From the NCBI GenBank assembly GCA_963693305.1, contig OY855914.1:17958260-18022259 (forward strand): a stretch of 64,000 nucleotides of DNA. Direction: 5' to 3'. The translations under genes were made by a program, and so were the position numbers. Under the pieces are notes generated by a model that was not told the origin of the DNA, searched no databases, and worked only from the letters and a program-made list of their open reading frames with translations. This stretch comes from Meandrina meandrites (lineage: Eukaryota; Cnidaria; Anthozoa; Scleractinia; Meandrinidae). Shown piece after piece: positions 26,199-49,436 of the stretch (the first letter of the stretch is position 1; the number at the start of each line of letters is the position of its first letter).

Positions 26199-26862
26199 AG
26201 CCTCCATTTTGCTTCAAAAGTATGCATTGTTATTTGACTTTTTGACATTACCGGTTTCTCGAATATCAAAGTTTGCCTCGAGTTCGCTTCTCGGAACAGT
26301 TAATGTCGGCTGACAAATATCAGTGCATATTTTAGCGCCAAATGGAGGCTTTTTTTTATCTGTAAGCTTTCAGAATAGAAACAGAAAGTGCAATGTAAAA
26401 CCATACGTGTAACGCTTTGGGTAAAGTCAGACATATAAAATAGTAATTGAGTCCCCTGCTGTTGCTAGTAAAACAAAATCCGGCACGAAAATCAAATTTA
26501 TTGATGGTTAACGTTTTAACTTGCTCCCAGAGTACAACTGTTCATATACAGTGGATTCCAGGCCTTGTCCTCTTTGTCCAAGTAAGTAACTTCAACACCA
26601 AGTCATTAAAACCATATTGGTCATAAAGAGGATAAAGTACGAAATTCATGAGCTGTGTTAGGCAAATGCACGTTAATCACGTTAGTGTTACTTAACAAAT
26701 TATAACGGGAACTTATTTCTACGATCACTTCAAAAGAAACTGATTTGCTTTTGCTGCTTCTTCTGTTATATATTACTATTGTTTTAATAATCACAAATCA
26801 TTTGAGTCTGCCAGTGTGGTTGGGTATGACGGCAGACGATAGTTAGCATTGCAACATGTGTA

Positions 26863-27246
26863 CGCACATATAAAATACTGGTTCTAGCACAACTTTATGT
26901 GTAAACATCTTAACCCTATTCGGACCGGGGGGGGGGGGGGGGGGTAAGTGCCCGCGCTGAATTTGAACGTTTATAACTTTTTCAAGATTCAACCAAACGC
27001 TGCCAAACTTTACAGGTTTTTCTAAAATTTATCTGGGAATAAATTGGTAGGATAGGTTGTTGTGTCTGGAACTTGACGTTACCATGGCAACGTCATTTTG
27101 ACAGGCATGTTTTTCCAAATTTGTAATTTTTGTGTTTCCATTAATAAAAATTAACTTTAATTCAACTATTTTCACCTGTTTTATAGATTTTGAGTGTTTT
27201 TCAGTTATTTTGGGTGGTTTTCTGATGTTTTGGAAAAATTTTGAAA
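26863..27246. other. Non-coding junction with an 18-base poly-G tract
   Basis: The duplicated block ends near 26862. A G run covers 26927-26944. No gene is seen. The left terminus of the viral element should lie between here and 27650 but could not be identified. Confidence 0.45.
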
Positions 27247-27342
27247 TCCAAGATGGCGGATCCAAGATGGCGGCTGTTTTGACATCATGATGTAATTGTC
27301 CCGTGATATGACGTCATCACCGCACGTGACGTATATAAAAAG
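27247..27342 (+). promoter_or_regulatory. Putative element promoter: two YY1-like sites, CRE and TATA box
   Basis: CCAAGATGGCGG occurs twice in tandem (27248-27259 and 27262-27273), matching the YY1 consensus. TGACGTCA, a perfect CRE, lies at 27309-27316, and TATATAAAA at 27332-27340. The cluster is about 310 bases upstream of the polymerase start on the same strand. The order and spacing fit an RNA polymerase II promoter. The link to the polymerase gene is inferred. Confidence 0.45.
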
Positions 27343-27650
27343 ATCCAAAAAAGCCCGGTATGAATAGAGTTAAAAACAAAAAATTCGGCCCTTTACGCCC
27401 TCATTTTTTGGGTTAAAATTTTTGTACACATAAAATGTGCCACAACGCAGTATTTTATATGTGTGTGTGTGGTTTGAGAGAAAATAACGCGAGCATGGAA
27501 GTAAACAAAGAGCGTGACCCCAAACCGAGCGAGCGGATGTGTCACAAAAAAATATTTTCTATTGAAGAAATGTATGTACTGTCTATATACAAAAGTGTGC
27601 CAGAATTATTTTACAATTGAACAGTTATCTGCACTAGTATATACGCCGAG

Positions 27651-29695
27651 ATGGCAGCCGCAAGATTTTCGTCCAATGTTTTAGAACAGTTTTACAGTCC
27701 ATTAACGAGGGAGCAAAATAGAAACCTTCCTCAGCCAATACGACCTGAACTAGTTCCTTTACGTGACAGGTTTAAAATAAGCCAAAGTAATTTCCAGGAA
27801 TGGCTTCGTGTTTGGATAATGGATGTATCCAAAACAAATCCAAACAATAAAAACATTCTGGTGTTTGCACAAGAAAATAAAGAAAAGTTCACTGATTTCA
27901 TTGAACAGGAAATCCTTAAGTTGGGCAGCGTAAAGGTGAGCTTCGGGCTACAAGTACAGTTTAAAATAGAAAGAAACGGCAAAACGGAAGAAACGACGCA
28001 CTATTTTAAAGAGGACCAGCCGCACGTTTTTAACAGGGATAAAAAAGAAGTGATAGAACAAAAATATGAAGAATTCATAGAAAGAATAAGGGGGGAAATA
28101 GAAAACTGGTCATTGGAAGGATCAGGATGGGAGGTTGAAAGGATAGAGACTGCATACGTGAATGTCGCAAAATATCAGCCACTGCGCGGAGGAACCTATT
28201 TACCTCTTCCAGCCAATTTGGCAAAAAAGAAAACAATAATTAACGTGAAAACAGAGACAACGAATGCCTGAAGTGGGCTCTAAGAGCTGCTATATTTCCT
28301 CCACAAGATGGAAAGAACCCACAAAGACCAAGCAAATATCCGGTTAACGATGGTATTAACTATGGTGGTATCGATTTCCCAACACCGGTAAAACAGATAG
28401 ACAAGCTTGAGGCGCAAAACGGAAACCTGGCAATAAACGTATTTGGCTGGAAAAACAACACCGTGATTGTGCACAGGATAAGCAGAAAAGAGCCGGTTGT
28501 GCCGAGAATAAACCTGATGTTGATTGAGTCAGGGGAAATTCAGCACTATTGTTTCGTAAAAAGAGAAAGCGCTTTGCTGTTTGATAAGGCAATAAATAAT
28601 AAAACTTTCTACTGCATAATGTGCTTAACTCGTTTTACAAGAGCGGAGGTGCTCGAGAACCACAAAAAATACTGCAACGGCGTGAACGGCAGGCCGACAA
28701 GGATTGAGATGCCAGAAGAGGGGAAAACATCCTCGCTTTCCAAAATTACCACAAACAGATGAAGGCGCCCTATGTGATATATGCGGACTTTGAGGCACTG
28801 GTAAAAAAAGATACGCGGCGGTGAGCGCGGGCCGGATAGCAAGGACAAAAGCTACACATACAAGACCGAATGGCATGAAGGGTGCGGGTATTCGTACATT
28901 GTCGTGAAAAGCGATGGCGAAGTTACAGGGTCAAAAGTTTACAGGGGTGAAAATGAGGTGAGAACGTTTTTAAGCGACATTCTGCAGGAAGAAACGAAAA
29001 TCAAAGAGAGTCTGGCCACACCAAAGCCGATTGTGATGACAGACGAAGACTGGAAAAAATTCAAAAGTGCAACTGATTGTCATATTTGTAACAAAATATT
29101 GATAAAAGACGAATACTTAGACTCTTTGCCTGTTTTTAAAATCGAAGAAGGCGGGGGAAAATGTAATTATCGGGGCCAATGGCACAAAAGGTGCTATTAC
29201 ATGGTACAAAACAGCAGCAGAAGGAACTAAAAATGAAAAAAGAAGTAATGATAGAGGAAAATGGCATTATCGAACTAAAAAAAGGAGGCAGAAAAAAAAG
29301 GACAACGGGATTCTCACACTAAAACGTGTAACAAAGAAAAAGGACCAGGAGCAGTCAAAGGCACAGGTGAATTGTAAGTTCTGTTAAAAGCCTCTACTTC
29401 AGAAAAACTTCAGAGACGCGGTAAAAGGCCATCGCCACATGACGGGCGCGTACCGCGGGGCCGCGCACAACGCATGTAATCTGAAAATGCAAATAAAACC
29501 CAAGACTGACCAGATACCAATTGTGTTTCACAACCTGAGGGGATACGTCGCACACCATTTAATGCAAGCGATGTCAAATTCGCAGAAAGAGGTGAAATGC
29601 GTAGCCAACAACATGGAGAAATACATTACCTTATCGGTTGGAGGTCTGCGTTTCATTGACAGCTTGAACTTTTTGCAAGGAAGCCTTGATTCTCC
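27651..29695 (+). pseudogene. polB: Family B DNA polymerase, N-terminal part (exonuclease and HNH modules)
   Basis: The gene starts MAAARFSS with an intact first frame of 206 codons, rich in charged residues and ending YLPLPANLAKKK, a block typical of animal Polinton polymerases. A frameshift near 28262 leads to CLKWALRAA and a C2H2-like CIMCLTRF...HKKYC segment. Further shifts near 28730 and 28810 flank APYVIYADFEAL at about 28770-28796, the DxE exonuclease I motif. After an in-frame stop near 29385 comes CKFC...KPL and HMTGAYRGAAHNACN (about 29430-29480), which resembles a recombination endonuclease VII HNH module. The gene is then cut by the transposon at 29696. The protein would copy the element's linear genome. 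At least three frameshifts and one stop make this copy inactive as assembled. Confidence 0.85.
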
Positions 29696-30633
29696 ATGAG
29701 GGGACGCAAGCGGCGTCAACTGTAAGTTCCTGATTTCTTTAAGAAGATTAGGTTGTGGTTACCGAAAGTGTTATAATCTGTCAATAACATTTGGGTCATC
29801 TTGTCATCACCAGTGTCACGCAGGGTGTTACGCGGATCAATTTCCATTCTGGCGGCAGAATAAATTACAATGTTCGCGGCGAATTCGCTTTAGCGGCAAT
29901 TCAGGAGAGACAGAAGAAGCTCATCTAGTAAGGAATCATTTCTAGCCATTTTTATGTCGCATAAGGATTTCGACCTTTTAAGATAGAAGATGCTCTAAGC
30001 AACAGTTTTCGCTTTATGCAAGGTGATCATTTCTTGGTTCTATCGAACGATCATGTGGATTTGCAGAGTGGAAATTATGGTGAGTTACAGCCGAGAGTTG
30101 CGACGACACCGGCGCCTTCAATACAGAAAGCCGTTCAAAATGCTAAAAATGCTTCGACATATTACAGATGGTTCGTACCTTTCATTTGTACAAGGAAGAT
30201 GAATTGTTTTGTTTTCCGATGCGAGGACACTCGTTCTGCAACACTAAGAAAGCGCTCGACCTCGCGCAATCCGTCGAAATGCTGTGTTTGGTTTAGTTCA
30301 GTTTTAAAGTCGTACTCAAGAAACGCATGTATAATGCCCGGGCTATCACATCATGGATCATTCATTAAACAGTCATATAAGGAGGTCGCCAGGTAAGTCA
30401 GTCTATCAAACTTTATTTTAGGTCAGTGAATTTATAATTCGTGGTGTGTGATTGCTCCATCCGGTTCTAACATTTGGTCCCATCTTTGTGCAAAAACACA
30501 GCTTTCGCCTTTAAGTTAATGGTTTTTAATACGCGGAGCGCGCCAGTAAAATTTGCGAAACAGAATATTTCGCTATATTTACTTTCTATTCGTGTTCTGT
30601 AAGGCACTGTTCGTTATTTATGGCTAAGGGGAT

Positions 30634-30652
30634 GGGGGGGGGGGGGGGGGGG
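30634..30652 (+). repeat. Poly-G tract, 19 bases
   Basis: A pure run of 19 G lies inside the inserted transposon. Confidence 0.95.
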
Positions 30653-30972
30653 CGTTTAGATGAATGAAAAAGAGGGGGGTTGTTTTTTAAATAAGTAGAA
30701 ATGAGAGCTAATGAGGGGGTAAGCTTTTAGAATCTGTTGTTCTCAACACTTGTTTAGCCCGCCAATTTGCAGACAAATTTAATATGTTAATCTCTGTTTT
30801 GAAAATTATATTCCCTCTATTAACAAAGAACCCGGTCTTAGTTGGAAAGCCAAGAAACAGTGACGTGCCGTAGCGTTATTTAAAGGTTCCAATGTATAAA
30901 TCCCTTTACATGCATAAAGGATATTACATGGCCGCGCGGAGATGCGAAATTTCTCTTCGAGTAAGTTGAAGC

Positions 30973-31686
30973 GCAATTCTAATGATACAGCAGCGCTTAA
31001 TATTTTCTCCATCTGAGCTGGCGGGTGGCACACCTCATACAGTTCGATGTAACCTGCAATTCTAATGATACAGCAGCGCTTAATATTTTTTCCATCGAAA
31101 CTGGCGGGTGGCACACCTCGTACAGTTCGATGTAACCTGCAATTCTAATAGTAGAGCTGCGCTTAATATTTTCTCCATCTGAGCTGGCGGGTGGCACACC
31201 TCATACAGTTCGATGTAACCTGCAATTCTAATGATACAGCAGCGCTTAATATTTTCTCCATCGGAACTGGCGGGTGGCACACCTCATACAGCTCGATGTA
31301 ACCTGCAATTCTTATAGTAGAGCTGCGCTTAATAGTTTCTCCATCTGAGCTGGCGGGTGGCACACCTCATACAGTTCGATGTAACCTGCAATTCTTATGA
31401 TACAGCAGCGCTTAATATTTTCTCCATCGGAACTGGCGGGTGGCACACCTCATACAGTTCGATGTAACCTGCAATTCTAATATTAGAGCTGTGCTTAATA
31501 TTTTCTCCATCTGAGCTGGCGGGTGGCACACCTCATACAGTTCGATGTAACCTGCAATTCTAATGATACAGCAGCGCTTAATATTTTCTCCATCAGAACT
31601 GGCGGGTGGCACACCTCATACAGTTCGATGTAACCTGCAATTCTAATAGTAGAGCTGCGCTTAATATTTTCTCCATCGGAACTGTA
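30973..31686. repeat. 83-bp satellite array with dimeric higher-order structure
   Basis: About 8.6 units of exactly 83 bases begin at 30973, 31056, 31139, 31222, 31305, 31388, 31471, 31554 and 31637. Two unit types alternate from the second unit on. One carries GATACAGCAGCGC, usually followed by GGAACTGG; the other carries AGTAGAGCTGCGC followed by GAGCTGG. The real period is therefore 166 bases. The array opens the same short frame repeatedly on the minus strand. That is a by-product of the 83-base period and not evidence of coding. Confidence 0.95.
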
Positions 31687-32739
31687 ATTGTAATTTTAAT
31701 GATACGGATATTTTTTCCTGCACTTGGTGGATTTTATTTTCAGTCTGCAACCCGGAGATACTCATCAGAGGCACGATATAATTGTTTTAGTCCGTAAAAG
31801 GGTCCCGTTTTCGCCATATAAAGGAAATAGAAGACGGCTGCACGAAGGCTACATGCTTGTGGGTACACTTGTACATTGTACAATATGCTGAAGATAGAAA
31901 CATTACGGCCTTCTGCGCCCATAAAATTTATTTAAATAGAAGGCCTTGCTTTGATACTGATCTAAAAATCACTTTCATGACTTTACGAGCCTGTTAGTGT
32001 GTCGCTACGGCTTGTTCGTGGTTTGCTACAGCAAAATGTATAGTATTTCTCAGTACATTCTTCCCTAAAGCCCTCAAGACTGGAACGACGAGCTTCAGTC
32101 AGAGTACAGCTTAGCGCAGAGGTACGTGGAATTCGTTTTTATTTAGTAAGTTTAGTACGCTCGCAGTTATCATTTCTCTACGCACCAGTTTGCAAAAGGC
32201 CGCTACGCTCGCAGTATAAGACTTGAACTGCTCTGGCCTTTAAAAAAATGTTTCATAGGAAAATTCCTTTATATTATTGCAGGCCGCTCATCATGCAACT
32301 ATTTGTTTGGTAAGTTGTTTGCCGTTATAATACGCGTTCGTCCATTCCATAATTCTATCGCTTTTTTCTGATAGGCTCGGTTATCGGACTACCGATACAG
32401 CAGTCCGGTTGTATTTTTTTTCGGCCTCCGGAGTAATTCGCTCTGTATGGTTTTAGAATTCGTTTCTCCTCATGCTTTCTTCGGCAATTATCTATAAGCG
32501 GGTTCCTTGTGGGCTCGAATTCCTTGCTGGTGTACATCGACAACATTTTAACAAACCGAAATCACAGACGTTTACCACAGCGCGCTTTATATAATCGCAA
32601 CATTACAAAATTATTTAGTCGACAGTGTTATGATCAACTCTTTTCTGGTCTTCATCAGATTAATTATATTTTTGACAGTGGAACGGATTATGACACCTTT
32701 CGCAGCTCAAAGCGAAGGAGCGTGGTGTTAGGAATGTTA

Positions 32740-32768
32740 GGAATGCTAGGATAATATCCTAGCATTCC
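32740..32768. other. Perfect hairpin with 14-bp arms near the transposon end
   Basis: GGAATGCTAGGATA (32740-32753) and TATCCTAGCATTCC (32755-32768) are exact reverse complements separated by one base. The right terminus of the inserted transposon lies about 40 bases downstream. Near-terminal hairpins can serve as transposase or termination signals. Here the role is unknown. Confidence 0.8.
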
Positions 32769-32807
32769 TTTAAGTACTTACAGTTTACGCCTTCTGCGTC
32801 CCCTCAT

Positions 32808-34762
32808 GTGTAAGAGCAACGCCGAAGGAGTCACTAAAAATCACATCAACCATTTCAAATGGCAGTGACCTGCTTTACAAAAAGGGGATTTACCCTTACG
32901 AGTACATGGACTCATGGGCGAGATTTAGCGAAACAAGTCTTCCTGACAAGCAGATGTTTTACAGCAAGCTCAACGACGAGCACATAACAGAAGATGAGTA
33001 CGCTCACGCGCAGACAGTCTGGGAGACCTTCGAATGCAAAACATTGGGAGACTATCATGAACTTTACGTAAAAACGGATGTTGCCCTGTTGGCAGATGTA
33101 TTTGAGAACTTCCGTAAACTGTGTCTGGAGCAGTACGGGTTAGATCCGGCACACTATTTCACATCACCAGGACTCTCATGGGACGCCCTCTTGAAAAAGA
33201 CGGGTGTCGAGCTTGAGTTGTTTACAGACCTTGAAATGCATCTCTTCGCGGAAAGGGGAATTCGGGGGGGGGGGGGGGGGGAATCTCGATGGTAAGCAAG
33301 AGATACTCAAAGGCAAACAACCCGCTGGTACCGGACTATGACCCCAGCAAACCAAACAGTTACATTATGTTTCTAGACGCGAACAACCTCTACGGTTGGG
33401 CAATGAGCTTGCCGCTCCCCAAAAGTGGTTTTAAATGGAAACGTGTCATGCCGACGGAGGAGGAAATTCTGAATAAAAAGAAGAACGCAAAGAATGGATG
33501 GATCCTTGAGGTCGATTTGGAGTACCCAGCGGAGCTGCATAAAGAACACAACAGCTACCCGCCGGCGCCCGAGAAAAAGGTCGTGAAAAAGGAATGTATG
33601 TCGGAATACCAAAAGAGGTTGATAAAAGACCTAGAGCTGAAATCCTCGGACAGCAAGAAGCTGCTGCTGACACTTGAGGACAAAAAAGACTACGTCGTGC
33701 GTTACAGAAACCTGCAGTTTTATCTGAAGCAGGGCATGAAACTGAAGCGAGTGCACAGGGTGTTGGAGTTCGAACAAGAATGCTGGATGGAGCCGTACAT
33801 CCGGATGAATACAGAATTCAGAAAGCAAGCAAAGAACGACTTTGAAAAGAACTTTTACAAGCTAATGAATAACTCAGTTTTTGGCAAAACCATGGAGAAC
33901 CTGCGCAACCGTGTTGATGTAAAAATAGTGCGCAGCAATGAGAAAGACAAAATAAGGAAATTGGTCGCCAGCCCTTTGTACTCAAGGCATGTGATATTTA
34001 CAAACGACCTGGTTGGAATCGACATGCGCAAAAGCGGGCTGCTGCTCAACAAGCCGGTCTACACGGGGATGACAATACTTGACAACAGCAAGATCCTGAT
34101 GTACGACTTTTTCTACAATCATCTGAAAAAGCAGAACGGAAAAAACTGCGATCTCCTGTACACAGACACAGACAGCCTTCTGCTTGAAATCAAAACGGAT
34201 GACGTCTACAAAGACATAAAATCAAACGAAAAGCATTATGACACGAGCGACTACCCGAAGGAACATCCGCTCCACTCAACTGCGAACAAAAAGGTCTTGG
34301 GCAAAATGAAAGACGAGTGTGCCGGAACCCCCATATCAGAGATTGTTTATCTGAAGCCGAAAATGTACTCTATCATGAAGGCAGACGAAAAAAATATCAA
34401 AAAAGCAAAGGGTGTAAAAGAGCGTTGTCAAGAAACAAATAAAGCATGAACAGTACAAGGAAACGCTTTTCGGTACGCAGCAGCTGTGGCACGGAATGAA
34501 CATTCTATGAAGCGAGGGTCATGAGATTTATGGCATGCATGTAAACAAAATTTCGCTTTCCCCATTTGATTCAAAGCGCTGGATAGCAGATGATAGGATC
34601 AATACAAATGCTTACGGGTACACTAGGCCTTTATTCACAAATACCGAAATGAAAGAAATAGAAGCTTTATTCACTACTACAGAAATGAAAGAAATAGAAG
34701 CTTTATTAACAAATACTGAAATCAAAGAAATAGAAGAAGCTTTAACAGAGATGCAGAAATAA
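32808..34762 (+). pseudogene. polB: Family B DNA polymerase, C-terminal part (palm and thumb)
   Basis: After the inserted transposon the frame resumes with ATPKESLKITSTISNG and runs through the 129-codon frame at 32906. It breaks at an 18-base G tract (33264-33281) and continues from 33289 for 386 codons. Visible motifs are DANNLYGW at about 33376 (motif A aspartate), [14 protein letters not shown] near 33855 (motif B) and YTDTDS at 34159-34176 (motif C catalytic aspartates). The catalytic residues are thus all intact. A final frameshift near 34425 separates the tail GTQQLWHGMN...GHEIYGMH...SKRWI. That tail ends in three roughly 16-residue tandem repeats containing EMKEIEAL. The motif spelling is that of protein-primed Polinton-type polymerases. 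Confidence 0.9.
33264..33281 (+). repeat. Poly-G tract, 18 bases, inside the polymerase reading frame
   Basis: The tract replaces a short glycine-coding G run in the family, to judge from the flanking residues RGIRGG and SMVSKRYS. The extra bases put the two sides in different frames. Confidence 0.8.
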
Positions 34763-34769
34763 AGAAATG

Positions 34770-35744
34770 TTATAGTTGCTCGGGGGGTAATTGTGTATTT
34801 GGAGGCACAACCAGCAGTTCTTCACGCACAAAGCCTCGCTTGGGTCCGTCGTGCAAATAGTAGAGAACGGGCTGATTCGGTTTGGTAAAAGATCGTTCAA
34901 TGTTGTAAACTTTCAAAGACCAGATTGGCTCAGTGGCTCTTTTCACACCACCTTCAAGCTCGCCAGGTTTTTTCAAATACCTAACATTCAAAAGAGAGGG
35001 GAGCTTTTTTTCCATTTCCCCAACAGGCCTCAAATAAGGTGTTGATGGCTTTGCATAAACATTTTTTTCCTTTGATGGCAACGGCAGGTTTCTGGCCGAT
35101 AAGGCTTGTCAATTCGTTGTTCAGAGCGACCACAACTTCAGGAAGCCTTTTTACCCACGCAGTGGACCGCTGGCCCTCAGGCATGCGCATTTCAACGGCG
35201 TACTGGTGCCCGAACAAGCGCTCAGCCAGGGCGCGGTAGAAACGTTCAACAATGGCCTGGTTACGGTGAATGTCAACTCGCCCGCGCCGAATGTACGTTT
35301 TGTGATTTTCCATTTATTTTGTAACAGCGCCAATGAATTCGCGCCCAGGGTCAACCTGCAGCAGTTCAGGCCATTTCAGAGGCGCGCGCTTGTAAATTCT
35401 CTTAAAAGCCAGGGCAACTTTCGAGGTCAAGGGTTCAGCCTCTTTGTATCGGCTGGCCACGTCGACAACGGTGAGGGCATATTTAAAAACTTTGCGCCCG
35501 CGGGGCAGTTTGTCATGCGGCAGAAAAAGAAGATCTGCCTGGTGGACAGCATTGGGTGTAGGCACGTCGAATTTCGGCCGAGGAATGCGCTTCGGTGCGG
35601 AAAGGAAGATCTGCCAGAGTACTTGCTTGAACAGCCACTTTTTTGCGGTTTCTTCTGGTAACTTGGCGATAATTTTTTGATCGCAGCAATACCTTTTCAG
35701 TAGCCCCCAGGGCTATAGTATATCTTTGCGAGTTTGTCGTCCAT
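34770..35744 (-). pseudogene. int: Retrovirus-like DDE integrase of the viral element
   Basis: The gene starts MDDKLAKIYYSP at 35744. A TGA stop occurs at about codon 15 and a frameshift near 35660. The catalytic core then reads HQADLLFLPHD, ALTVVDVASRYKEAEPL (first aspartates), LLQVDPGREF (second aspartate) and QAIVERFYRALAERLF (glutamate), so the D, D and E residues are all visible. An in-frame TAA at 35314-35316 splits the core. After a further shift near 35060 the C-terminal chromo/SH3-like part reads WSLKVYNIERS...VLYYLHDGPKRGFVREELL. The enzyme would insert the element's ends into host DNA. Two stops and two frameshifts make this copy non-functional. It ends 8 bases from the convergent polymerase stop. 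Confidence 0.9.
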
Positions 35745-35772
35745 TGTTTAATATAAGTAGGGAGTAAAAAGT

Positions 35773-36195
35773 TTAAAGGAACCGGAAGGCAGCGTAGCCC
35801 AGAGCAAGAGCCCCGGCACCGACGAACATGAGTTCACCATTTTTCTGCTGCTCGCTTGGTTGATAGAAATCTGAGAACTTGGGCTCTTTGGGTGGTATCA
35901 TTTGTTTGTCATGGTGCGCCTGGTTGTACAGTTTAAAGGCGTAGTCAGTGTTGGTGAAGTTCTGCTTGGACTGCGCCTTAATTTGCGTGTTAGTCGCAAT
36001 CCAGTCGAGAAGTTTGGTGCGGTCACGGGAGTATTTGGCGTAAGCCGCTTGATACGCCTCGAGAGCTTTATCATGTCGTACTTTTTCGTCAAGTGCAGCG
36101 TCACCTCCGCCAAGTGCCTTCGCAAGATAATTGCCACCGATAAAAGCCGCAGCATTCAACACAGCCCCACCAACCATCATCGCGATACTTGCCAT
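35773..36195 (-). CDS. Small membrane-associated protein of the viral element (140 aa)
   Basis: The intact frame starts MASIAMMVGGAVLNAAAF, a glycine/alanine-rich hydrophobic helix. A soluble, charged middle with many lysines, tyrosines and glutamines follows. The protein ends in a second hydrophobic segment, GELMFVGAGALALGYAAFRFL. Two membrane-anchoring ends around a polar centre suggest a virion membrane or minor capsid protein, but I recognise no named family. It is the first of a run of small same-strand genes between integrase and ATPase spaced 28-52 bases apart, which looks like co-expression. Confidence 0.65.
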   Translation of the reverse strand: MASIAMMVGGAVLNAAAFIGGNYLAKALGGGDAALDEKVRHDKALEAYQAAYAKYSRDRTKLLDWIATNTQIKAQSKQNFTNTDYAFKLYNQAHHDKQMIPPKEPKFSDFYQPSEQQKNGELMFVGAGALALGYAAFRFL

Positions 36196-36237
36196 CGTAT
36201 TATGTATCAGAGCAGAGTTTTTTTCAAATCATTAATT

Positions 36238-36459
36238 TCAGACGCTGGTGGGAAGGATTTTTTTGTCCTCGAGGTACTGTTTGAGCGCAATGCTCCCTGC
36301 CATGACGGCGGTGAACTTCACGTAGTTCATTGCACTGCTGCTTGGGTCAGAAGTAAAATTCTCTTTCACAACTTTTTTTGCGACCCAGCTGATGCCGGCG
36401 GCCAAACCAGTGATAGTAGCAGCATCCATGATGGTTTTAACAAGCTTGTTGTCTGACAT
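36238..36459 (-). CDS. Small membrane protein of the viral element (73 aa)
   Basis: MSDNKLVKTIMDAATITGLAAGIS is chosen as the start; an upstream in-frame start would add 11 hydrophobic residues. The product has two hydrophobic helices (about residues 8-25 and 48-60) separated by a lysine-rich stretch, and a charged end DKKILPTSV. The frame is uninterrupted. Function unknown; a virion membrane protein is likely from context. Confidence 0.6.
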   Translation of the reverse strand: MSDNKLVKTIMDAATITGLAAGISWVAKKVVKENFTSDPSSSAMNYVKFTAVMAGSIALKQYLEDKKILPTSV

Positions 36460-36507
36460 TATTTTTGCTAGTATAGAAATGGAAACATACAAAAGTTTAA
36501 ATAAGAA

Positions 36508-36663
36508 TTAATGTGTTTCTTCTGCGTCCGGGTTATATAATGTGGCATTCAAAAGATCGCGGAGTGTATTAAAAACCTTCACGTTGAAGTCGTACCATAT
36601 CAGTCCGATTCCAAAAATGGCCGCGGTTGAGATAAGAACTTGGGGAACATCAACTTTTTTCAT
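36508..36663 (-). CDS. Small membrane protein of the viral element (51 aa)
   Basis: The start MKKVDVPQVLIS gives one hydrophobic helix (VLISTAAIFGIGLIWY, about residues 9-24) and a short polar tail ending DAEETH. It is too short for homology by eye. Its position within the same-strand cluster of membrane proteins supports it as a real gene. Confidence 0.5.
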   Translation of the reverse strand: MKKVDVPQVLISTAAIFGIGLIWYDFNVKVFNTLRDLLNATLYNPDAEETH

Positions 36664-36699
36664 GGTATAGGAGGCAGATATAATATTAATTCCAAACAT

Positions 36700-37191
36700 T
36701 CAATCCAAATGTTTTAAAACTCTGGGCTTTGTCGCGCAAACAGGTTGTGGCTCAACACGTGCGGGCTCAGGTGTCTTTTTGCTGAATACGGCCTTGAGCT
36801 CTTCGCGTTTGTAATAAATCCCGATCAGTGAAACGACTAAGCTGGCAACAGCAAGCCATTGGGTGGTGCTTAGACTGCTATTTTTTTCTCCGGCACTATT
36901 TGGTGTTTCGTCTGCCGTAGGCGGGGCTGGCTCAGGGGCCGGGGCGGCGGCCTTTGCCTTGTTGTTTGCAAGTATGATAGCAGCCTCAGCTGCGGCTTTT
37001 TTCTGTTGTTCGCGGGCACGCCGCGTTCTTTCAGCAACCAATTTGCCTGCAGCCACACGCTTGGGATTTTTTACGCGCTGCGGGGTTGAAGTTGGAGTTG
37101 GAGTTGCTGCTTGCTGTGTGATATCGACCTGCGAATGTGCCGTCTGGGTCTCGCCCTGCGAATGTGCGCTTTCGGATTGTTCGGTTGACAT
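36700..37191 (-). CDS. Low-complexity single-pass membrane protein of the viral element (163 aa)
   Basis: MSTEQSESAHSQ starts an S/T/Q-rich N-terminus. A basic KNPKRVAAGKLVAERTRRAR segment, an alanine/proline-rich stretch and one transmembrane segment near residues 111-126 (WLAVASLVVSLIGIYY) follow. A proline-rich tail ends the protein. The KNPKRVAAGK-type basic block recurs, in my recollection, in proteins of related elements and could bind nucleic acid or be processed. The frame is intact. A start 15 codons upstream is also possible. Confidence 0.6.
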   Translation of the reverse strand: MSTEQSESAHSQGETQTAHSQVDITQQAATPTPTSTPQRVKNPKRVAAGKLVAERTRRAREQQKKAAAEAAIILANNKAKAAAPAPEPAPPTADETPNSAGEKNSSLSTTQWLAVASLVVSLIGIYYKREELKAVFSKKTPEPARVEPQPVCATKPRVLKHLD

Positions 37192-37236
37192 TTTGAAACA
37201 AAGCGTATATGTTAAGGAAATAAAATTATTATGCAA

Positions 37237-37839
37237 TTACTCAGAATTTGTCTGCAAGTGTTCAGCAGTTGGTGAGGTATGCTGAGGAATTTCTTCTAAT
37301 TTTGCTTCATACATTCTATCCAAATGTGAGCTAAAATCAATTTGTTTTGTTGTGATCAGCGCCGCGTTGGCCAGAGCAAGAAAACGGCCGCACTTAAAAG
37401 CAAGGTTGCCGGCCAGATTGGAGAGCTCTTAATTGATGTTGTAGTCGATTCTGAGTTCTTTTTGATAACTGTCGATGTCTTTGATGTCAACAGCCATTCC
37501 GACCGCTTTGGTTACAAGAAAAATGCAGCTGTCGATGAAACTTTCTGTTGTCTTGGAGCCCACGTAGGTCTCGTACCTTTTGATGTATTTCTCAACATCT
37601 TTTTCGCTCAGGCGCTTTACCTGTTCATGTGTTAACTGCACGCCGATGGCCTCTTTGGCTTTGCCTGTCCATACAAGCACGTTCAGCTGCTCACGAAGAG
37701 CAGGAATGTCAGGTCCGGGGGCGGTTAAGCTGGTTAAGTCTGGCACAATACTACTACCAGCTGGCCCGCTCGACGGCTCGGCTTCCAGTAGGTCCAGGTT
37801 TAAGTTCTTAAGTTCTGCGCACAACTCTTGTTCACCCAT
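37237..37839 (-). pseudogene. Unrecognised roughly 200-codon viral-element protein, one stop
   Basis: MGEQELCAELKNLNLDLL begins an acidic N-terminus. A helical domain follows, with LREQLNVLVW, LTHEQVKRLSEKDVEKYIKRYETYVG and SKTTESFIDSCIFLVTKAVGM. An in-frame TAA at 37429-37431 (codon 137) interrupts it. The same frame then continues for about 64 codons (ELSNLAGNLAFKCGRFL...) to a natural stop, so this is a single nonsense change. The gene overlaps the end of the ATPase gene by 8 bases. That tight coupling is usual for virion morphogenesis genes, but no function is recognised. Confidence 0.6.
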
Positions 37840-38464
37840 TGTCACTATATACAACTTTTATTTTTTTTAATTCAAAATGAATGCCGTCGGGGTGGCGAAG
37901 CGAGAACACAAGATAAGAGAACTTTCGCTCTTTCAGCTTTGAAATCAGATCTTTGTACTCATCGTGGGAGAGTTTGCCGGCGTAATCATCAAAGATAGCC
38001 TTCGTGGTTTTGGCCGAGGTAGTGTAAAATAGAACGATAGACGCCACGTTCTCCCGGAAGGAAGGTGTGATGCTGGTTATCTTCTGGGTCAGCACCCAAA
38101 CGCTGATGCCGATATGTCGAGCGGAAAAGCCAAGATTCACCTGCTGGCCTGTGCGCCCTTTCACATCTTTGGAGGCTGCGCAGTCATCGAGGATTATGAG
38201 CGTGTTGGTGCCCTCAAACAGCGAGCTCACGACCTTCAAAAAAATTTCCACCTCGTGCTGCTTGCATATTACCACAAACATTCTCGGATCATTTTCACCA
38301 ATTCGGTGGTAGGTCTTGTTGTGCGCGAATGTTGGGCAGATAAGTACGATATAGTCGAACTTTCCGTGGAAAGGCCCTTAGATCTGGTCCACCACATACC
38401 TCGATTTGCCTGAATTCGTCGGGCCTACAACGAGAGCGTTAAAAGGTATCTTGCTCGGATCCAT
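37832..38464 (-). pseudogene. HerA/FtsK-superfamily packaging ATPase
   Basis: This 211-codon frame starts MDPSKIPFNALVV. It has a Walker A loop GPTNSGKS at residues 14-21 and a Walker B TLIILDDCA at about residues 88-96. A sensor-like SVWVLTQ ends at about residue 127. This is the layout of the A32-like genome-packaging ATPases of Polintons and related viruses, which push DNA into the capsid. One in-frame TAA at codon 29 (38378-38380) breaks it just after the P-loop; otherwise the frame is intact. It lies directly after the probable capsid gene (5-base gap) and overlaps the next gene by 8 bases, forming a morphogenesis cassette. Confidence 0.85.
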
Positions 38465-38469
38465 TTATA

Positions 38470-39744
38470 TTATAACTGAAAATATTCTAATTGCCTTCCT
38501 AATATATTCATCTGCGCGTCGCTGATTACGTAAATGTGGCAGTTCACATTGCCCGAGCCGCTTGCATTTCTCTCGAGCTCCAACTGTACCCCATCCTTTG
38601 TGTTTACAAGTCGCGTGCCGCTTCCGTGCATCGAGTGGTCAGTCATGGAACGCAGATCGATCATAAACCCGAACTTGTCTTCTGTATAAAACTTTGTTGC
38701 ATTCATGTGCTGTGTTTTGTTTTCGGCTTTGAGAAAGAAGCGTTTTACCTCCTCCCAGACATCAATTTCTTCAAGTTCGTTGTTGTACAGCCTGTTGGGC
38801 GAGCCGTTTACTGTGACACTGACTTTCGTCAGGTCTGGGTTTAAGTAAGTTTCTGCCTGCCTTGCGCCAGCTACATAGGGCTCGACAAAAAGTAGCAAGA
38901 TGCCTTTGAGGGACCTTCTCTGTGGGTTAACTCTGAGATTCAGCCTTGTGTCTGTGCCTTTGGCAAAGGTAACCACTGCGTCACGCTGGTCATATGCAAA
39001 TTCTATCCCACTTGTGTACGTGCTGAAGGCTTCATCTGCCAGTGTTTTGCTTCTTATCATCTTGTACTCCAGCTGGACGTTTTTCAGCTTGTATTTAAGC
39101 TTCGAGGGGTCTGAGCCTCTGACGACCTTAGAGGCTGGCGCAATTGTCAGTTCGAACACAAGATCGCTGAATAGAGCCTGCGGATAAAAGGTCCCGTGGT
39201 CGTTCAAAATCTGGTGGTCAAGGCGGATTCTGTATTTGGTTCCGTAAATCCCGTTCAGTTTGATTTCTGCAGAGACGCCTGAGGTCTTCTTATCACCCGC
39301 GTTTGAGCGAGTTTTGTTGAGATCCTCACCCTGGATTCCATCTTGCAGCATGTTGTCGCGCTCCTCCTGCGATAGGAAGAGGACCTCGAATATCTTGTAA
39401 ATGTCGTAATCAACTGTGTCCTGCACGATTGTGCCAGAGTAACTCACAACAAGTTTTTCAACTAGCGCCCGACCAACATTGTCGACAAGAAAGTTGTTGG
39501 CATGGCCTCTGCTCAAATCGATGTTGAAGCGCAGCGCGTGTGAGCCGGGAACAATGACCTCGTTTTCATTCAGCCTGGGCACCGAAACATAAAGCGTTTC
39601 CTGCGGATTGGCTTCTGTGCGATCGAAAGTGATGCGTTTCATCGCGCGCTCTGCTTTTAGAGCGCCAAGAGTTTTTTCACTGCGTGTTGGCCGAAGGTTT
39701 TCTTGTACACCGTCCGTTACTGTAAGAAATATAAAAGTGTTCAA
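38470..39744 (-). CDS. Probable capsid protein (jelly-roll), open over 424 codons
   Basis: The frame is open over its full length with no frameshift or stop. It reads through LGALKAERAMKRITFDR, VPGSHALRFNIDLSRGHANNFL, VGRALVEKLVVSYSGTIV and a polar middle. Later blocks are TKYRIRLDHQIL, YPQALFSDLVFELTIAP, LKGILLLFVEPYVAG and a terminal NCHIYVISDAQMNIL. Alternating beta-strand blocks and a VPGS...NNFL...VxxLVVxxxG pattern are typical of double jelly-roll capsid proteins of this virus group. I assign it as the likely major capsid protein from pattern and position, not from a computed match. No ATG opens the frame. A TTTCTTACAG acceptor-like sequence ends at 39720 just before TDGVQEN, so the true start is probably on an upstream exon. 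Confidence 0.6.
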   Translation of the reverse strand: MNTFIFLTVTDGVQENLRPTRSEKTLGALKAERAMKRITFDRTEANPQETLYVSVPRLNENEVIVPGSHALRFNIDLSRGHANNFLVDNVGRALVEKLVVSYSGTIVQDTVDYDIYKIFEVLFLSQEERDNMLQDGIQGEDLNKTRSNAGDKKTSGVSAEIKLNGIYGTKYRIRLDHQILNDHGTFYPQALFSDLVFELTIAPASKVVRGSDPSKLKYKLKNVQLEYKMIRSKTLADEAFSTYTSGIEFAYDQRDAVVTFAKGTDTRLNLRVNPQRRSLKGILLLFVEPYVAGARQAETYLNPDLTKVSVTVNGSPNRLYNNELEEIDVWEEVKRFFLKAENKTQHMNATKFYTEDKFGFMIDLRSMTDHSMHGSGTRLVNTKDGVQLELERNASGSGNVNCHIYVISDAQMNILGRQLEYFQL

Positions 39745-39930
39745 TTAAAATTTCAATTGTAAATATAAAATCACGCGATGGCAGAAGGTGGCGAATTTTG
39801 TATGGACCAACCAGATCTTGACCACGATATTGACCATGATGACGACGATGATGGTGATGATGAACAAGAGGGCAACAGAACCCAGCCATTTCAGCCTGGC
39901 AAAGCGTCCACCCCCTACCATGGTGGTGAA
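39745..39930 (-). CDS. Possible small transmembrane protein, antisense overlap
   Basis: A minus-strand frame of about 60 codons starting MVGGGRFARLKWLGSVALLF contains a strong hydrophobic segment (VALLFIITIIVVIMVNIVVKIWLV). It is antisense to the Asp/His-rich N-terminus of the + strand gene. The GAT/CAT-rich repeat at 39825-39865 would give a hydrophobic frame by chance, so it may be an artefact. It could also supply a 5' exon for the capsid protein. Confidence 0.2.
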   Translation of the reverse strand, partial: FTTMVGGGRFARLKWLGSVALLFIITIIVVIMVNIVVKIWLVHTKFATFCHRVILYLQLKF

Positions 39931-41175
39931 CAACATGAAATGCAAACTATGCAGCACGAACAGAGTGGACTTCCAGAAACATCATTTGATGAAAATATAC
40001 CTTTGTTGGGGGGCTTTATTCATCAAGATGACAAACCAGCTCTTCTTGAAAGAGCAAGAGCTTTCTATAAAAGGAGGTTTCCAAGAGTTGACTTCGGGAA
40101 ATTAGGCCCAATCGGTTTCAGCAAAAGGCCTGGGAATGAGACTACAATCGTTTCATTTGGAACAAAAGGTGGCGAGACTGACATTTTCAGAAAAGATGAG
40201 AAAGGTCTTCTCAAAAAAAATTTACAGACAAGTTCAAAACATCCCTTGGTCCAGAAGCTGAATCTCTGATTGCTCAAGACAATGAAGAAATAAGAGCAAA
40301 CCGGCAGAGATTAAGAGAAGCTGAAAAACAACTCAGGGATGCAGAAAAACTAGCCTCTGAAAGCGAAAAAGCCGCCCAAGAAGTTCAAAATTTGAGAAAC
40401 AGAATAGAACGAAGTCAAGTTCAGATCGAAAATATTCAAGAAGAACAAGGTACAAACGTTGAAAGTGAATCAGAACTGCGGAGACTGCAGCAACTGAAAA
40501 AAAAAATATCAAAAGGATTTTGAAAATGCAAAAAGAGAAGTGGCGGCTCTCGAGAAACAAGCCAAAACCAAAGCCAAAGAACAAACCAGGGTCGACCAAC
40601 TTAGAGCAAGCCTGGCGGCCAAAGAGAGCGAAAGGAACACAATGGAATCGAGGCTCAACGACACAAGAACATTGGATGAGCTGAAAGAGCAAGAAGCTGA
40701 TCTGCAGCGCCAAAACGAGGAAGATCAGGCAGTTATCGACAATGAAGACGCCTCACCTTCTGATAAACAAGCTGCCGAAGGAAGAGTAGCGGAAAGACAA
40801 GAGGAGCTTGCTCGTTTAAGAACTCAGATTAATGAAAGAGAAAGAGCGCTTCCACTTTGTGAGAGGTTAAAGGAGATATTCAAAAAATATGGTGTGACCG
40901 TTACAGCAATCGTTCTTGCTGCTGGGGTGACAATTGGTGCAGTCATTGGGGCTATTACAAACGCTTTGAGAGCCAACAGTAAAGCGTTGGGAAAAGGTCT
41001 GAAAGATATTGGCTCAAAGGTTGCATCAGCTCTGCCAGGTCTTATTGGCTCAATTGTGAGCTTTCTTTTCAAAGCCGCCGGTCAAGCTATCGGTTTTCTG
41101 GCTGAGCACACCTGGCTGCTGATTTTGGCTGTGGTTGCCTTTCTTGTCGAAAAATACATTAAGAAGCGGCGTTAG
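39778..41175 (+). pseudogene. Coiled-coil membrane protein of the viral element
   Basis: MAEGGEFC starts an Asp/His-rich N-terminus. FDENIPLLGG, RRFPRVDFGKLGPIGF and a long coiled coil (about 40260-40850, rich in E/K/Q/R/L heptads) follow. The C-terminus has hydrophobic helices (TVTAIVLAAGVTIGAVIGAI, LPGLIGSIVSFLF, WLLILAVVAFLVEKYI) and ends KKRR. It is the only right-arm gene on the + strand. Frameshifts occur in A runs at about 40213 and 40497, so three frames make up the protein. Both lie in homopolymers and could be assembly errors. A membrane-anchored fibre or scaffold of the virion is a guess; no named family is recognised. Its stop overlaps the convergent gene's stop. Confidence 0.6.
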
Positions 41176-42824
41176 CGCATAAAGGTGTAAATCAAAGCCG
41201 CAACCCCGACGGCAGCAACAGCAATAGTTGCTTTGTTACTTTCGTGTGTTTCAGTGCTATTTGTATTTGGTACTGGCTCATCAGGTGTTTGCTCTTCAGT
41301 CGCGGGCCCCTTTTTTCTGTTCAGGCGTGGGCCCCTTTTCTTGCATTGCTTCCTTGTGTATCGGGTTTGAGGGGTGGCTGTTTGGTGGGTTTATCTTTGT
41401 TGGTCCTCCTGCCATCAGCTTTAGCCCTGCTTTTTATGTGCTCTTATTCACTTGGTCGTTAACCCCGAGCTTCATGCCTGGCATAGCTTGTTTGAGCTGG
41501 TTGTTGTAACCAATAACACTTCCCGAATTTATTACCATCCGCGCAGGCATCAGCCAGGCGCCCGGACACACAGCAAGGTTAAGCCTCACCCTGCCTCGTC
41601 GACAGCAAATTGGTACCTTTGAACAGACTTTGCCAGATCCGGTTGCCTTATTGAGTCTCCCACTAGCACAAGGAACTCACTTTGCGCTTCCTTTGCGCGC
41701 CCTCCTGACCCAAGTATGCTGCTTCTAACGTTCACCTGTGAACCCAAAACACAGTAAACGAACGCCTCTATCGACTGGTTTATTCGCGCCAAACCCGCCT
41801 GGGTCAGACCTTCTGCTACATTGGGATAAAACATGTCTGCCTGTCCATAGGCAGCGTCATCCGGCTCGATATAATAAATCAAGTTACCTTTTGACCCTGA
41901 ACCGCCTTCGTCAGAAAATTTATTAAACCAGGGTAACCGACTGACGTTTTAGCTCGTCCAACGTTAATGACATAGATGTAAACGCTTCCCAGGCCGTGGT
42001 TTGCGCCTCCTGTAAAACGAAAATCGCTTGACAGGTCGACTCCGAACTCATTGCATATTCTTTTGTATGAAGCGACGTCGTATTTGTTGTTAAACTGGTT
42101 AAAAAATAGGGTCGCCAGGCAAAGCGCTTATGCTTTGTATTCCTCCCATCTGAAACAATATTCGCCTGACAGTAAAATATATATGGAACTTGTAAAAAGC
42201 TCGCACATTCGGGGGCAAAGTTATAGTAGAGTTGTCATCGAAAATTTCACGACTGATACCACACCCAGTTGTCGCGCACCAGACAGCAAAATTCAGCTGC
42301 TGTGGCCAATATTTAATATTTGGGCCGGCTAGGCATGTTTTAGACTCTTTCCCTGAATGGTGGGTAAGTTTGGTTTTTTGAAATATCTCTCTGAACTTTG
42401 TTGTGAAATACTGGTCTGGTGTTACGTAAATATTCAGTTGGTTATTAATTTTTTTTTTTTTAAACTCTGTGCGGAATCGTGAAAGCCAACAGCAGGAATG
42501 GGCAAAGAGTCTCCTTTTAAACCACTTGGTGTAAGTTGTTGAGGGAACCCTTCTGATGATTGGTCAACACCCAGCGCACTTTTCATTTCCGTGCTCCAAT
42601 ATTTGCTGTCTGGACCAAAAAACGTTTATCAAATGGCCTGGCCCTGCTTTGAAATAAATTTCTGAGGTTGCTGTGTGGTCTTTGGCGAAATCGGTCTGTG
42701 GCTCAAACTTCGATTTATCGGCCTTCGGGTATTTTGCAAGAAAAGTCTTCCAAGCCTTTTTTTCTGCGACTTTGGCAGTGCTGTCAGCTTGTGGTGTCTG
42801 TAACCATTTAAGAAGCGCATCCAT
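41172..42824 (-). pseudogene. Large structural-type protein of the viral element, multiple frameshifts
   Basis: MDALLKWLQTPQAD starts at 42824, and the first frame ends near 42600 in GPGHLINVF. Scattered frames continue the same protein: YWSTEMKSALGVDQSS, NNQLNIYVTPDQYF, FRFTGGANHGLGSVYIYV, and the 98-codon piece IYYIEPDDAAYGQADMFYP...QVNVRSSILGSGGRAKEAQSEFL (41586-41882). A hydrophobic C-terminal helix ends at the stop 41172-41174. Total length is near 540 codons. At least five small indels disrupt it. Position among capsid-type genes and a terminal anchor suggest a minor capsid, penton or membrane structural protein. This is inferred from context only. Confidence 0.55.
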
Positions 42825-42840
42825 GTTTTATATTTAAAAA

Positions 42841-44612
42841 AAATATTTTCTCTAATTATAAAATGGTTTGAGAAGGAATATTAGCGATATAAAAAGTGAA
42901 CAACGACGTTTCGATGACTCCATGTCATCATTATCAAGTTAAAAATTAAAATACAAAGTTGATGCTTTATATAGTGATCGAAAATATTTAGGGTGTGAAA
43001 ATCTATTTACATAGTCAATTCAAGTAAACAGTTTGGCACGGACGGAGTCTGATTGTGTGTTGAGTTTTGGCTTTATGTTCCTGATGAAGAGCATTTCATA
43101 AAGTAAACAATCCAGCTTCGTGCGGCATTTCTTTAAAACAGTGAACTGTTTTTGTACACTGTAGCCTTGCAGCTTGTGGTCTTCTTTTAAGTGTTGACCA
43201 ATCGCAGAATATTTATGCTCAGCGATGCGTTGAAAAAGATGTCGGGATGTGAACCCGACATAATCTGCATCACACAGATTACATGCGAATTTGTAAACAA
43301 CGCAATGTTGATTTATAAGGGGAGGCTTGGCTTCTACCACTTTGAGGTCGTCCATAATTTTTCTGCTTGTAAACACTGGCTGCAGGTCACTTCCGATTTT
43401 CTTGTTGAGGTCGTTGAGATTACGGCGTAAAGCGTCAGCCGATCTCTGGTCTTTAAACGGCAAAACAATTCTGATGGGCTTGTCTTGCTGGGCTTCTTCC
43501 GGTGGTCTTGCTTGATCTCGTGTGCGGATAAAGTTGTTGATGGTTGATTCAATAAGGCGCGGAGGATACTTTAATTTAAGAAACATTGATCTTAAGGTGT
43601 TGCATTCATTGGCAAAAACATCTGGAGAAGATGAGAGACGATGAGCACGAATTAACATTGTTTTCAGGAGTGAATTCTTGTACTTGTTGTCAACGTGACT
43701 TTGATAGTGCAGTAAGAGGCCTTTGTTTGTTGCTTTTCTGTGGACGCGTGTTACTAGCCGATTTCCTGTAATTTCAATTTCCATTCCAACAAAGGGTAGC
43801 TTGTTGTTAGTTGCTGTTTCCATCGTAAAGCTGATTGAAGGGTGGGCTTCATTCAACGTTGTTAAAAGGGCTTCAGCAGATCCAAGGTCGGGTACCGTAG
43901 CTAAGGTGTCATCCACGTACCTTCTGTAGAAAGTGGGCATCTTGCCCTCGCTTTCCAGCTTCTCCTCGACTGAACACATGAAAACATTCGCCATGAGTGG
44001 ACCCAGGGGTGAACCCATTGCAACTCCATCGATTTGTTCATAAAGATGTCCGTTAAACTGGAAAAGTTGATGTTTTGTAGCAACCCTCAATAACTCAACA
44101 AGATCATCACGAGTGATGTTCAACTGATGGGTTTCGTTAAACCAGTTTCCAGCAAAGGCTTTGTTGGCTAGAATCTGGATGGTTTCTTCCAAGGGGACAC
44201 TTGTGAATAATGCCGACACATCGTACGATACAAAAATATCATTTTTGTTGAACTGAAGCTGTTGGATTTCCTGAGCAAACTCGAAGATATCAGAGATTGT
44301 GTATTTGTTGGTCGAGAAGGGCTTTAACTTCTCATCTAGCCATTTTGCTAAGGCGTAGTTGTAGGTGCCGGTCGCGGAGAGAATAGGTCTCATGGCCAGA
44401 TGCTTTTTGTGTGTCTTAGGTAATCCATAGAGATGTGCTAATCTGGTCCCTTTTGGACAGAGCAATTCAGCGATGTGTTTAGGAAGAATTCTGCGGACGA
44501 CTGAGTCGAGATGTTTTTCTTTTTCCAACAAAGGATGGTAATGTTTTGGGGGTCTACCTCTTCCTCTTGGCCTTTCCGAGTCAACCGGCTTAAATTTTGT
44601 TGCGTCATTGAT
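42841..44612 (-). mobile_element. Penelope-like retroelement
   Basis: The element's 3' side begins near 42895 with ACGTTTCGATGACTCCATG, a sequence type common at Penelope-like ends, about 70 bases from the start of the viral structural gene. The coding region runs back to about 44612, where a head-to-head second copy begins. It carries reverse transcriptase and GIY-YIG endonuclease. Confidence 0.8.
43020..44612 (-). CDS. Penelope-like reverse transcriptase with GIY-YIG endonuclease
   Basis: The frame is open from the head-to-head junction (INDATKFKPVDSERPRGRGR) to the stop at 43020, about 530 codons. Reverse transcriptase blocks are HLYGLPKTHK, MRPILSATGTYNYALAKWLDEKL, FVSYDVSALFTSVPL (motif A), DGVAMGSPLGPLMANVFM (motif B) and RRYVDDTLA (catalytic YVDD). 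A linker (IRIVLPFKDQRSADALRRNL, VVYKFACNLC) leads to a GIY-YIG nuclease starting DADYVGFTSRHLFQR, with a late YEMLFIRNIKPKLN carrying the conserved glutamate. The protein primes reverse transcription at nicks made by its nuclease. No stop or shift is seen in the C-terminal 500 codons. The N-terminus is cut at the junction, so the copy is 5' incomplete. Confidence 0.95.
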   Translation of the reverse strand: MNDATKFKPVDSERPRGRGRPPKHYHPLLEKEKHLDSVVRRILPKHIAELLCPKGTRLAHLYGLPKTHKKHLAMRPILSATGTYNYALAKWLDEKLKPFSTNKYTISDIFEFAQEIQQLQFNKNDIFVSYDVSALFTSVPLEETIQILANKAFAGNWFNETHQLNITRDDLVELLRVATKHQLFQFNGHLYEQIDGVAMGSPLGPLMANVFMCSVEEKLESEGKMPTFYRRYVDDTLATVPDLGSAEALLTTLNEAHPSISFTMETATNNKLPFVGMEIEITGNRLVTRVHRKATNKGLLLHYQSHVDNKYKNSLLKTMLIRAHRLSSSPDVFANECNTLRSMFLKLKYPPRLIESTINNFIRTRDQARPPEEAQQDKPIRIVLPFKDQRSADALRRNLNDLNKKIGSDLQPVFTSRKIMDDLKVVEAKPPLINQHCVVYKFACNLCDADYVGFTSRHLFQRIAEHKYSAIGQHLKEDHKLQGYSVQKQFTVLKKCRTKLDCLLYEMLFIRNIKPKLNTQSDSVRAKLFT

Positions 44613-44614
44613 AG

Positions 44615-45012
44615 ATGCCTCGACTCAGTCGTCCGCAGAATTCTTCCTAAACACATCGCTGAATTGCTCTGTCCAAAAGGGACCAGATTAGCACATCTCT
44701 ATGGATTACCTAAGACACACATAAAGCATCTGGCCATGAGACCTATTCTCTCCGCGACCGGCACCTACAACTACGCCTTAGCACAATGGCTAGATGAGAA
44801 GTTAAAGCCCTTCTCGACCAACAAATACACAATCTCTGATATCTTCGAGTTTGCTCAGGAAATCCAACAGCTTCAGTTCAACAAAAATGATATTTTTGTA
44901 TCGTACGATGTGTCGGCATTATTCACAAGTGTCCCCTTGGAAGAAACCATCCAGATTCTAGCCAACAAAGCCTTTGCTGGAAACTGGTTTAACGAAACCC
45001 ATCAGTTGAACA
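44615..45012 (+). pseudogene. Head-to-head second copy of the Penelope-like reverse transcriptase
   Basis: From LDSVVRRILPKHIAELLCP onward the + strand repeats the minus-strand gene almost residue for residue (THIKHL versus THKKHL, ALAQWL versus ALAKWL). It runs until the gap at 45013. The two arms are separated by about 100 bases unique to the minus copy. Penelope-like elements often form partial inverted dimers, but a collapsed or misjoined assembly next to a gap is also possible. Confidence 0.8.
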
Positions 45013-49275: not shown

Positions 49276-49349
49276 ATGAAATGTGAAAGACAAAATATTC
49301 AACATGTCGCGAGCGTGCGACAAAGAAAGAAATCTGAGTCCCGGACAGG

Positions 49350-49436
49350 AATCAAACCCATGACCTCCCAAACGCTGGGTGGGTGCTCTATCCACTGAGC
49401 TACAAGAATGCATGGTGAGCAAGGCCATTTACTGTA
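49350..49436 (-). mobile_element. tRNA-derived SINE head
   Basis: On the minus strand TGTAGCTCAGTGGATAGAGCACC gives a tRNA-like D-arm and A box in two overlapping pieces (GTAGCTCAGTGGATAGAG and GAGCACC). GGTTTGATTCCTGTC gives the B box. The cloverleaf is imperfect and a SINE-like GGGACTCAGATTT tail follows, so it is not a working tRNA gene. Confidence 0.65.

Follow-up and report, generated by a model that had tools for sequence, protein, structure and literature searches.

A probable Polinton-type endogenous virus of the coral Meandrina meandrites and the palindromic ends of its relatives

Polinton-type elements and the coral locus

Polintons (Mavericks) carry a family B DNA polymerase (PolB), a retrovirus-type integrase, an A32/FtsK-type ATPase and a double jelly-roll capsid, span 15-16 kilobases (kb) and end in inverted repeats of several hundred base pairs (bp). 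Polinton-type elements whose capsids are specific to cnidarians have already been described (PMC4028283, PMC10120064, PMC11071308; publications are cited throughout from the available parts of their text). The capsids of cnidarian elements lie apart from the main Maverick-Polinton cluster (PMC10120064), and the Hydra PY protein has an HHpred match to PBCV-1 VP54 only (PMC4028283). Here we describe an element from the same host group as these cnidarian Polintons, which include the Stylophora polinton/adintovirus. It lies in a 64,000-nucleotide (nt) stretch of the coral Meandrina meandrites (C12:17958260-18022259, hereafter the window), and relatives were sought in the 551 megabases and 56 contigs of this genome. 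The window element is very probably a Polinton-type double-stranded DNA virus that integrated, decayed and lost its right end; the coral genome holds at least 100 copies, this one included.

Several features agree with the original prediction of a Polinton-type endogenous virus at this locus. The protein-primed PolB is recognised by homology, the integrase by an rve core (E=5e-4, below the Pfam cut-off) and the packaging ATPase by the Pox_A32 profile, which matches 18/18 family members (best 2.7e-12). The capsid takes a double jelly-roll fold by model, and relatives have long terminal inverted repeats and target duplications. The Polinton/Maverick features listed above are shared, the inverted repeats and 15-16 kb length included. 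The coral family differs in its terminal palindromes, its capsid of 417 amino acids (aa), its several small membrane proteins, the absence of any protease found and its 5-bp rather than 6-bp target duplications. Because of the last difference we call it Polinton-type and not a canonical Polinton. Adintoviruses are defined by a hexon that BLASTP can match to adintovirus hexons (PMC11071296 section 16); identity with this group is not shown, the capsid model leans to giant-virus capsids and there is no protease match. Nor does the family have the large genome and core gene set of giant viruses, four relatives measuring 15.0-16.2 kb. The locus had been called near-complete, which is too strong because the right end is gone and the large genes except the capsid (PolB, integrase, ATPase and a gene of about 540 codons) are broken.

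Two IMG/VR contigs, L001 and L003, encode PolB 43-45% identical to that of the window, and L001 also has an integrase and a Pox_A32 ATPase. The L001 capsid candidate (477 aa) showed no significant similarity to the coral capsid in a profile comparison (E 0.21, probability 0.3%), and the L003 candidate, of 439 aa, was picked by inspection. Sharing a PolB lineage yet having different capsid candidates, these contigs are a mosaic of modules. Both also hold long repetitive fibre-like genes (Peptidase_S74 in L001). Scans of IMG/VR with the coral capsid and with the ATPase found no relative. Meldviruses with a D13-like Hexonrif (Meld23486) join adintovirus-like PolB and integrase to poxvirus-like virion proteins (PMC11071296). 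Compared by description only, this chimeric layout is like that of the coral element; no terminal hairpin is mentioned in the available text.

Terminal repeats and palindromes

Left and right end stretches were fetched for nine other copies, c0-c8. Long terminal inverted repeats of the Polinton/Maverick kind (about 230-560 bp), 97-99% identical, were found in c2 (507 bp), c5 (411 bp), c6 (230 bp) and c7 (560 bp). In c0 and c1 an inverted match (74 and 207 bp, 100%) starts at the edge of the right stretch, and in c3, c4 and c8 there was none in range of the fetched stretches. A script detected 5-bp target duplications in c2 (ACTGG), c6 (AGATC) and c7 (TGAGG). As set, it found none in c5, where GAATT appears after the right tip is shifted by one base, in line with the hairpin limits. 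The duplication is thus 5 bp in 4/4 copies and in none extends to 6 bp. From tip to tip the four copies measure 14.98-16.18 kb (c5 one base less). Copies with both terminal inverted repeats and target duplications, the search for which had been suggested as a check in related corals, are present in the same genome.

A terminal palindrome, 161-202 nt long, is present at all eight tips of c2, c5, c6 and c7, which were set independently by repeat and duplication. At five more tips (c0 and c1 left; c3, c4 and c8 right) a palindrome of 145-206 nt lies at the expected place. Arm-complementarity scores of the tips were 0.50-0.87, whilst only one of 1496 random windows of coral DNA reached 0.50 (scoring 0.58) and none reached 0.6. 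In a shuffle control the c1 fold was barely past the maximum (51 vs 50 pairs) and the other folds were clearly beyond it. The tips form two classes, beginning ACACAC and AGTAGT; the latter is also the commonest vertebrate Maverick end (PMC8097293). Between the 166-nt hairpins of c0, c2 and c8, 18-23 pairs have changed on both sides and still pair, with 0-5 one-sided changes and 0-2 two-sided changes without pairing, counted in both directions. The count left out the AGTAGT class and c1.

The window copy retains a left terminal hairpin (26862..27466), its outer arm at about 26862-26917 and its centre and inner arm at about 27380-27466. Both arms are kept, with 46/55 columns aligning, and between outer arm and hairpin centre (26918-27380) lies an insert of about 0.45 kb, with poly-G and the doubled motif ATCCAAGATGGCGG. 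The adjoining 27477..27655 is the inner part of the left terminal inverted repeat, being 83-89% identical to right-end pieces of 6/9 copies (c0, c1, c2, c4, c5 and c8). We place the left tip of the window copy at 26862, where it resembles the tips of c1 and c4 and a host repeat ends at 26863; the left end proposed earlier, 27245, was rejected. On the right, similarity to the other copies stops at 42867-42868 (9/9 copies), and no right inverted repeat was found within the window.

Poxvirus genomes end in terminal hairpins. Such ends also occur in a nucleocytoplasmic large DNA virus (NCLDV) example (PMC12747079) and in parvoviruses (PMC4061559); the coral element differs from all of these hairpin-ended viruses in its Polinton-type polymerase. 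Hairpin ends are absent from bidnaviruses, whose PolB was acquired from a Polinton (PMC4061559). No strong terminal palindrome was seen in L001 or L003, only AT-rich self-matches (in L003 one of 99 nt, 73%, near one end), at contig ends that need not be virus ends. The terms 'palindrom-' and 'hairpin' are absent from the text of PMC8097293 examined, and no description of hairpin or palindromic Polinton ends was found in the literature searched (including the available text of PMC8097293, PMC4061559, PMC6431247 and PMC12747079; subscription papers and the adintovirus paper lay outside).

Capsid, constraint and competing readings

The major capsid gene (38470..39744, minus strand) has the open frame of 424 codons originally predicted, but translation from the first ATG yields 390 aa, the usual length being 417 aa (26/30 loci). 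As anticipated, structure prediction yielded a double jelly-roll fold, assessed at fold level on a modest model (predicted local distance difference test, pLDDT, 56; predicted template modelling score, pTM, 0.45), with Capsid_N matching at E up to 1 in 14/46. The model resembles the capsids of giant viruses (Nucleocytoviricota); families missing from the fold lists were not read as excluded. Among close relatives of the capsid, the few with a species name come from the coral Oculina patagonica. A sequence search of solved structures gave one match, to a ribosomal protein (E 0.068), taken as chance; the same search with the L001 capsid and with an intact relative of the 540-codon protein gave no result.

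A capsid search of the genome produced 811 candidates, of which the best 106 were scored, a lower bound biased to good copies. All 106 matched at 88-100% identity, one being the window, and only nine contained internal stops. The capsid sits in a conserved gene block: in 30 fetched loci, window included, ATPase sequence, a gene family represented in the window by a 136-codon open reading frame (ORF; p136 family) and a coiled-coil piece were each found nearby in 30/30. We estimated ratios of nonsynonymous to synonymous substitution (dN/dS) by the Nei-Gojobori method with our own script, for copies of the usual length only. They were 0.141 for the capsid (27 copies), 0.219 for the ATPase (23), 0.305 for the p136 family (24), 0.274 for the 540-codon gene (7/9), and 0.36 (7/9, range 0.25-1.05) and 0.16 (8/9) for two genes termed 222a and 222b. 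The capsid, ATPase and other tested genes are thus under purifying selection between copies, most strongly the capsid; PolB and integrase were not among the six families. Such constraint is expected if the lineages needed these proteins and is not expected of drifting passengers.

As a tentative explanation, possible though far from assured, we propose a coral Polinton-type lineage of linear genomes with hairpin telomeres replicated arm from arm, which would combine a polymerase of terminal-protein type and a retrovirus-type integrase with a giant-virus-like capsid and ATPase and a membrane virion. The main, very probable reading of a Polinton-type virus itself includes the following mechanism, which is inferred. 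A linear genome would have been inserted into the chromosome by the integrase. During replication each genome end may fold into a hairpin, one arm templating the other, and the two ends may exchange; arm copying and end exchange together would give near-identical inverted repeats within a copy and different arms between copies. One speculative thought is that a displaced single strand could re-form a double-stranded origin at each end separately. Present copies would descend from lineages spreading as virions, so the capsid would have had to work. That there are several small membrane proteins suggests that the virion contains a membrane.

Matched arms might instead be kept by selection on base pairing, which would also leave two-sided changes. 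The 166-nt trio has few one-sided changes and G-T steps (0-1), as copying predicts, and we regard pairing selection as rather doubtful. It is very improbable that the palindromes are host or transposon hairpins, such as those of miniature inverted-repeat transposable elements (MITEs), that came to lie at the ends by chance. Other palindromes do exist in coral DNA and the arms vary between copies, but in c2, c5, c6 and c7 the palindromes stand exactly at both repeat tips, inside the 5-bp duplications.

The capsid genes could also be passengers of a transposon spread through the germ line by integrase and polymerase without virions. High copy number in one genome would fit, as would the failure to find an IMG/VR relative by capsid or ATPase and to see a virion or free genome. 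This account sits poorly with a capsid dN/dS (0.14) that is the lowest of the six families and with 97/106 scored capsid copies free of stops, and we consider it unlikely.

Some observations weigh against the main explanation. No virion, transcript or free genome has been seen. A protein-primed polymerase needs no hairpin, which leaves the end mechanism unexplained. Confidence in the capsid model is modest, its root-mean-square deviation exceeds 7 in most full-length alignments, and Pfam gives no match to the capsid of the window copy itself. Sampling took best matches of usual length, a bias towards low dN/dS. The palindrome or tip motif itself served to locate five of the 13 tips, leaving eight independent, and 5/18 tips sought were not found (c0 and c1 right, beyond the fetched stretch; c3, c4 and c8 left). 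The control window at 0.58 exceeds 5/13 tip scores (0.50-0.55), and in a second control a self-inverted match of at least 100 nt occurred in 5/200 flank windows. When the 165-nt hairpins of c4 and c5 are included, one-sided changes rise to 6-28 and unpaired two-sided changes to 0-10, which we think comes partly from shifted registers. The five dependent tips leave our estimate of this explanation unchanged because all eight independent tips agree.

Gene layout, neighbouring DNA and implications

The PolB gene (27651..34449, plus strand) has the fused layout of the 1286-aa PolB of L001, with which its pieces align in series by BLASTP at 27-59% identity (pairwise E down to 2e-96). The pieces 27651-28271, 28244-28759, 29388-29696, 32774-33292 and 33289-34449 correspond to residues 216-268, 266-435, 568-656, 690-831 and 835-1211 of the L001 protein. 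The alignment thus runs into the N-terminal part of the fused protein, the part that in adintovirus PolB holds an OTU-like domain; 28805-29227 is assigned by position only, and the PF03175 match is below cut-off. The polymerase predicted here is therefore present by homology, in a gene split by frame changes and a nested 3.1-kb insertion (29695..32808) that has 33-nt inverted ends and contains an 83-bp tandem array. A 206-codon ORF was rejected as a separate terminal-protein gene, since its tail and the next frame align serially with one fused PolB. The terminal protein is a separate gene in the Stylophora element (PMC11071308), whereas a single frame spans the N-terminal and next PolB piece in c0 (695 codons), c1 (613), c2 (389) and c5 (823).

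A genome profile search for the DNA_pol_B_2 family, in which 79 of 1193 candidates were scored, also gave 148 matches. Eight fetched loci of this kind (L004-L011, open frames of about 960-1425 codons) had no match to the PolB pieces of the element at E 1e-3; other Polinton-like families therefore probably coexist in the coral genome.

The integrase (34773..35712, minus strand) was correctly predicted but is broken into three frames, with the rve match on 35317-35712 and the other two, lacking one, assigned by position. Four small minus-strand ORFs follow: 140 aa (35773..36195), 73 aa (36238..36459), 63 aa and of membrane type (36508..36699), and 163 aa (36700..37191). Each has the hydrophobic segment expected of the small membrane proteins predicted here (19-residue maxima 1.86, 1.77 and 1.67), one, that of the 73-aa ORF, being weaker (1.28). 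Sequence like the 163-aa ORF lies near the capsid in 29/30 loci (exception L014), mostly cut by the stretch end. The 136-aa ORF (37429..37839, minus) belongs to a real gene family, of which it is a shortened form, 185-200 codons being the norm (24/30 loci). In the ATPase gene (37832..38464, minus), 198-210 codons long in 23/30 loci, the window copy has one in-frame stop, with the P-loop piece upstream of a 181-codon open piece; alone, the window piece matches Pox_A32 at 0.0015, below cut-off. No protease of Ulp1/adenovirus type had been visible, and none had a Pfam match among the ORFs scanned, the middle of the other copies lying outside the scan.

A putative coiled-coil-type protein with a hydrophobic segment, so labelled in the original prediction, is encoded in pieces at 39769..41175 (plus); roughly half of the loci have an uninterrupted frame of at least 440-455 codons, which runs to the stretch end. 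The 540-codon gene (41178..42824, minus), with a C-terminal hydrophobic segment, is real, its product measuring 517-590 aa in 7/9 other copies, but a single frame across the window copy contains 15 stops. No profile match to a single jelly-roll penton was found, and the model of this family was poor (pLDDT 48, pTM 0.26) and carries no fold claim. To its right, relatives have two plus-strand ORFs of about 222 aa (7/9 and 8/9 by filters), variable minus-strand ORFs of about 110-190 aa (once 285 aa) and the inverted repeat, all beyond the truncation point of the window copy; nine right-end proteins of relatives could not be credibly matched in the window, one reaching E 0.46. It is plausible that the genes not shared with textbook Polintons are lineage-specific virion components, as first suggested; the genes tested among copies, which do not include the four small membrane ORFs, are under purifying selection.

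The truncation is followed (42868..44393, minus) by an RVT_1 reverse transcriptase (43020-44393), which we take to be Penelope-like. Two inverted 394-bp copies (99%) of a reverse-transcriptase element surround a 108-bp spacer at 44117-45012, directly before a 200-N gap, and look like an assembly artefact or nested inversion. RVT_1 ORFs of other retroelements lie at 5252-7375 and 18700-19581. The single weak Rfam match, tRNA-like (49337-49409, 29.4 bits) and within nested inverted repeats, is possibly a short interspersed nuclear element. The G+C content of the 28-42 kb region of the window is above that of the surrounding DNA.

Polintons have been placed close to the origin of many DNA viruses of eukaryotes, and the workings of their genome ends have so far been inferred rather than demonstrated. 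The hairpin ends are the part of this family without an earlier Polinton description in the literature searched. With at least 100 capsid copies, clear ends in several of them and hairpin tips in which arm-to-arm copying seems to be recorded, it offers a natural data set on Polinton ends. Capsid constraint across so large a set of copies is also relevant to the question of whether Polintons in animals spread as virions. If true, a hairpin-telomere lineage in corals would link Polintons with hairpin-ended viruses.
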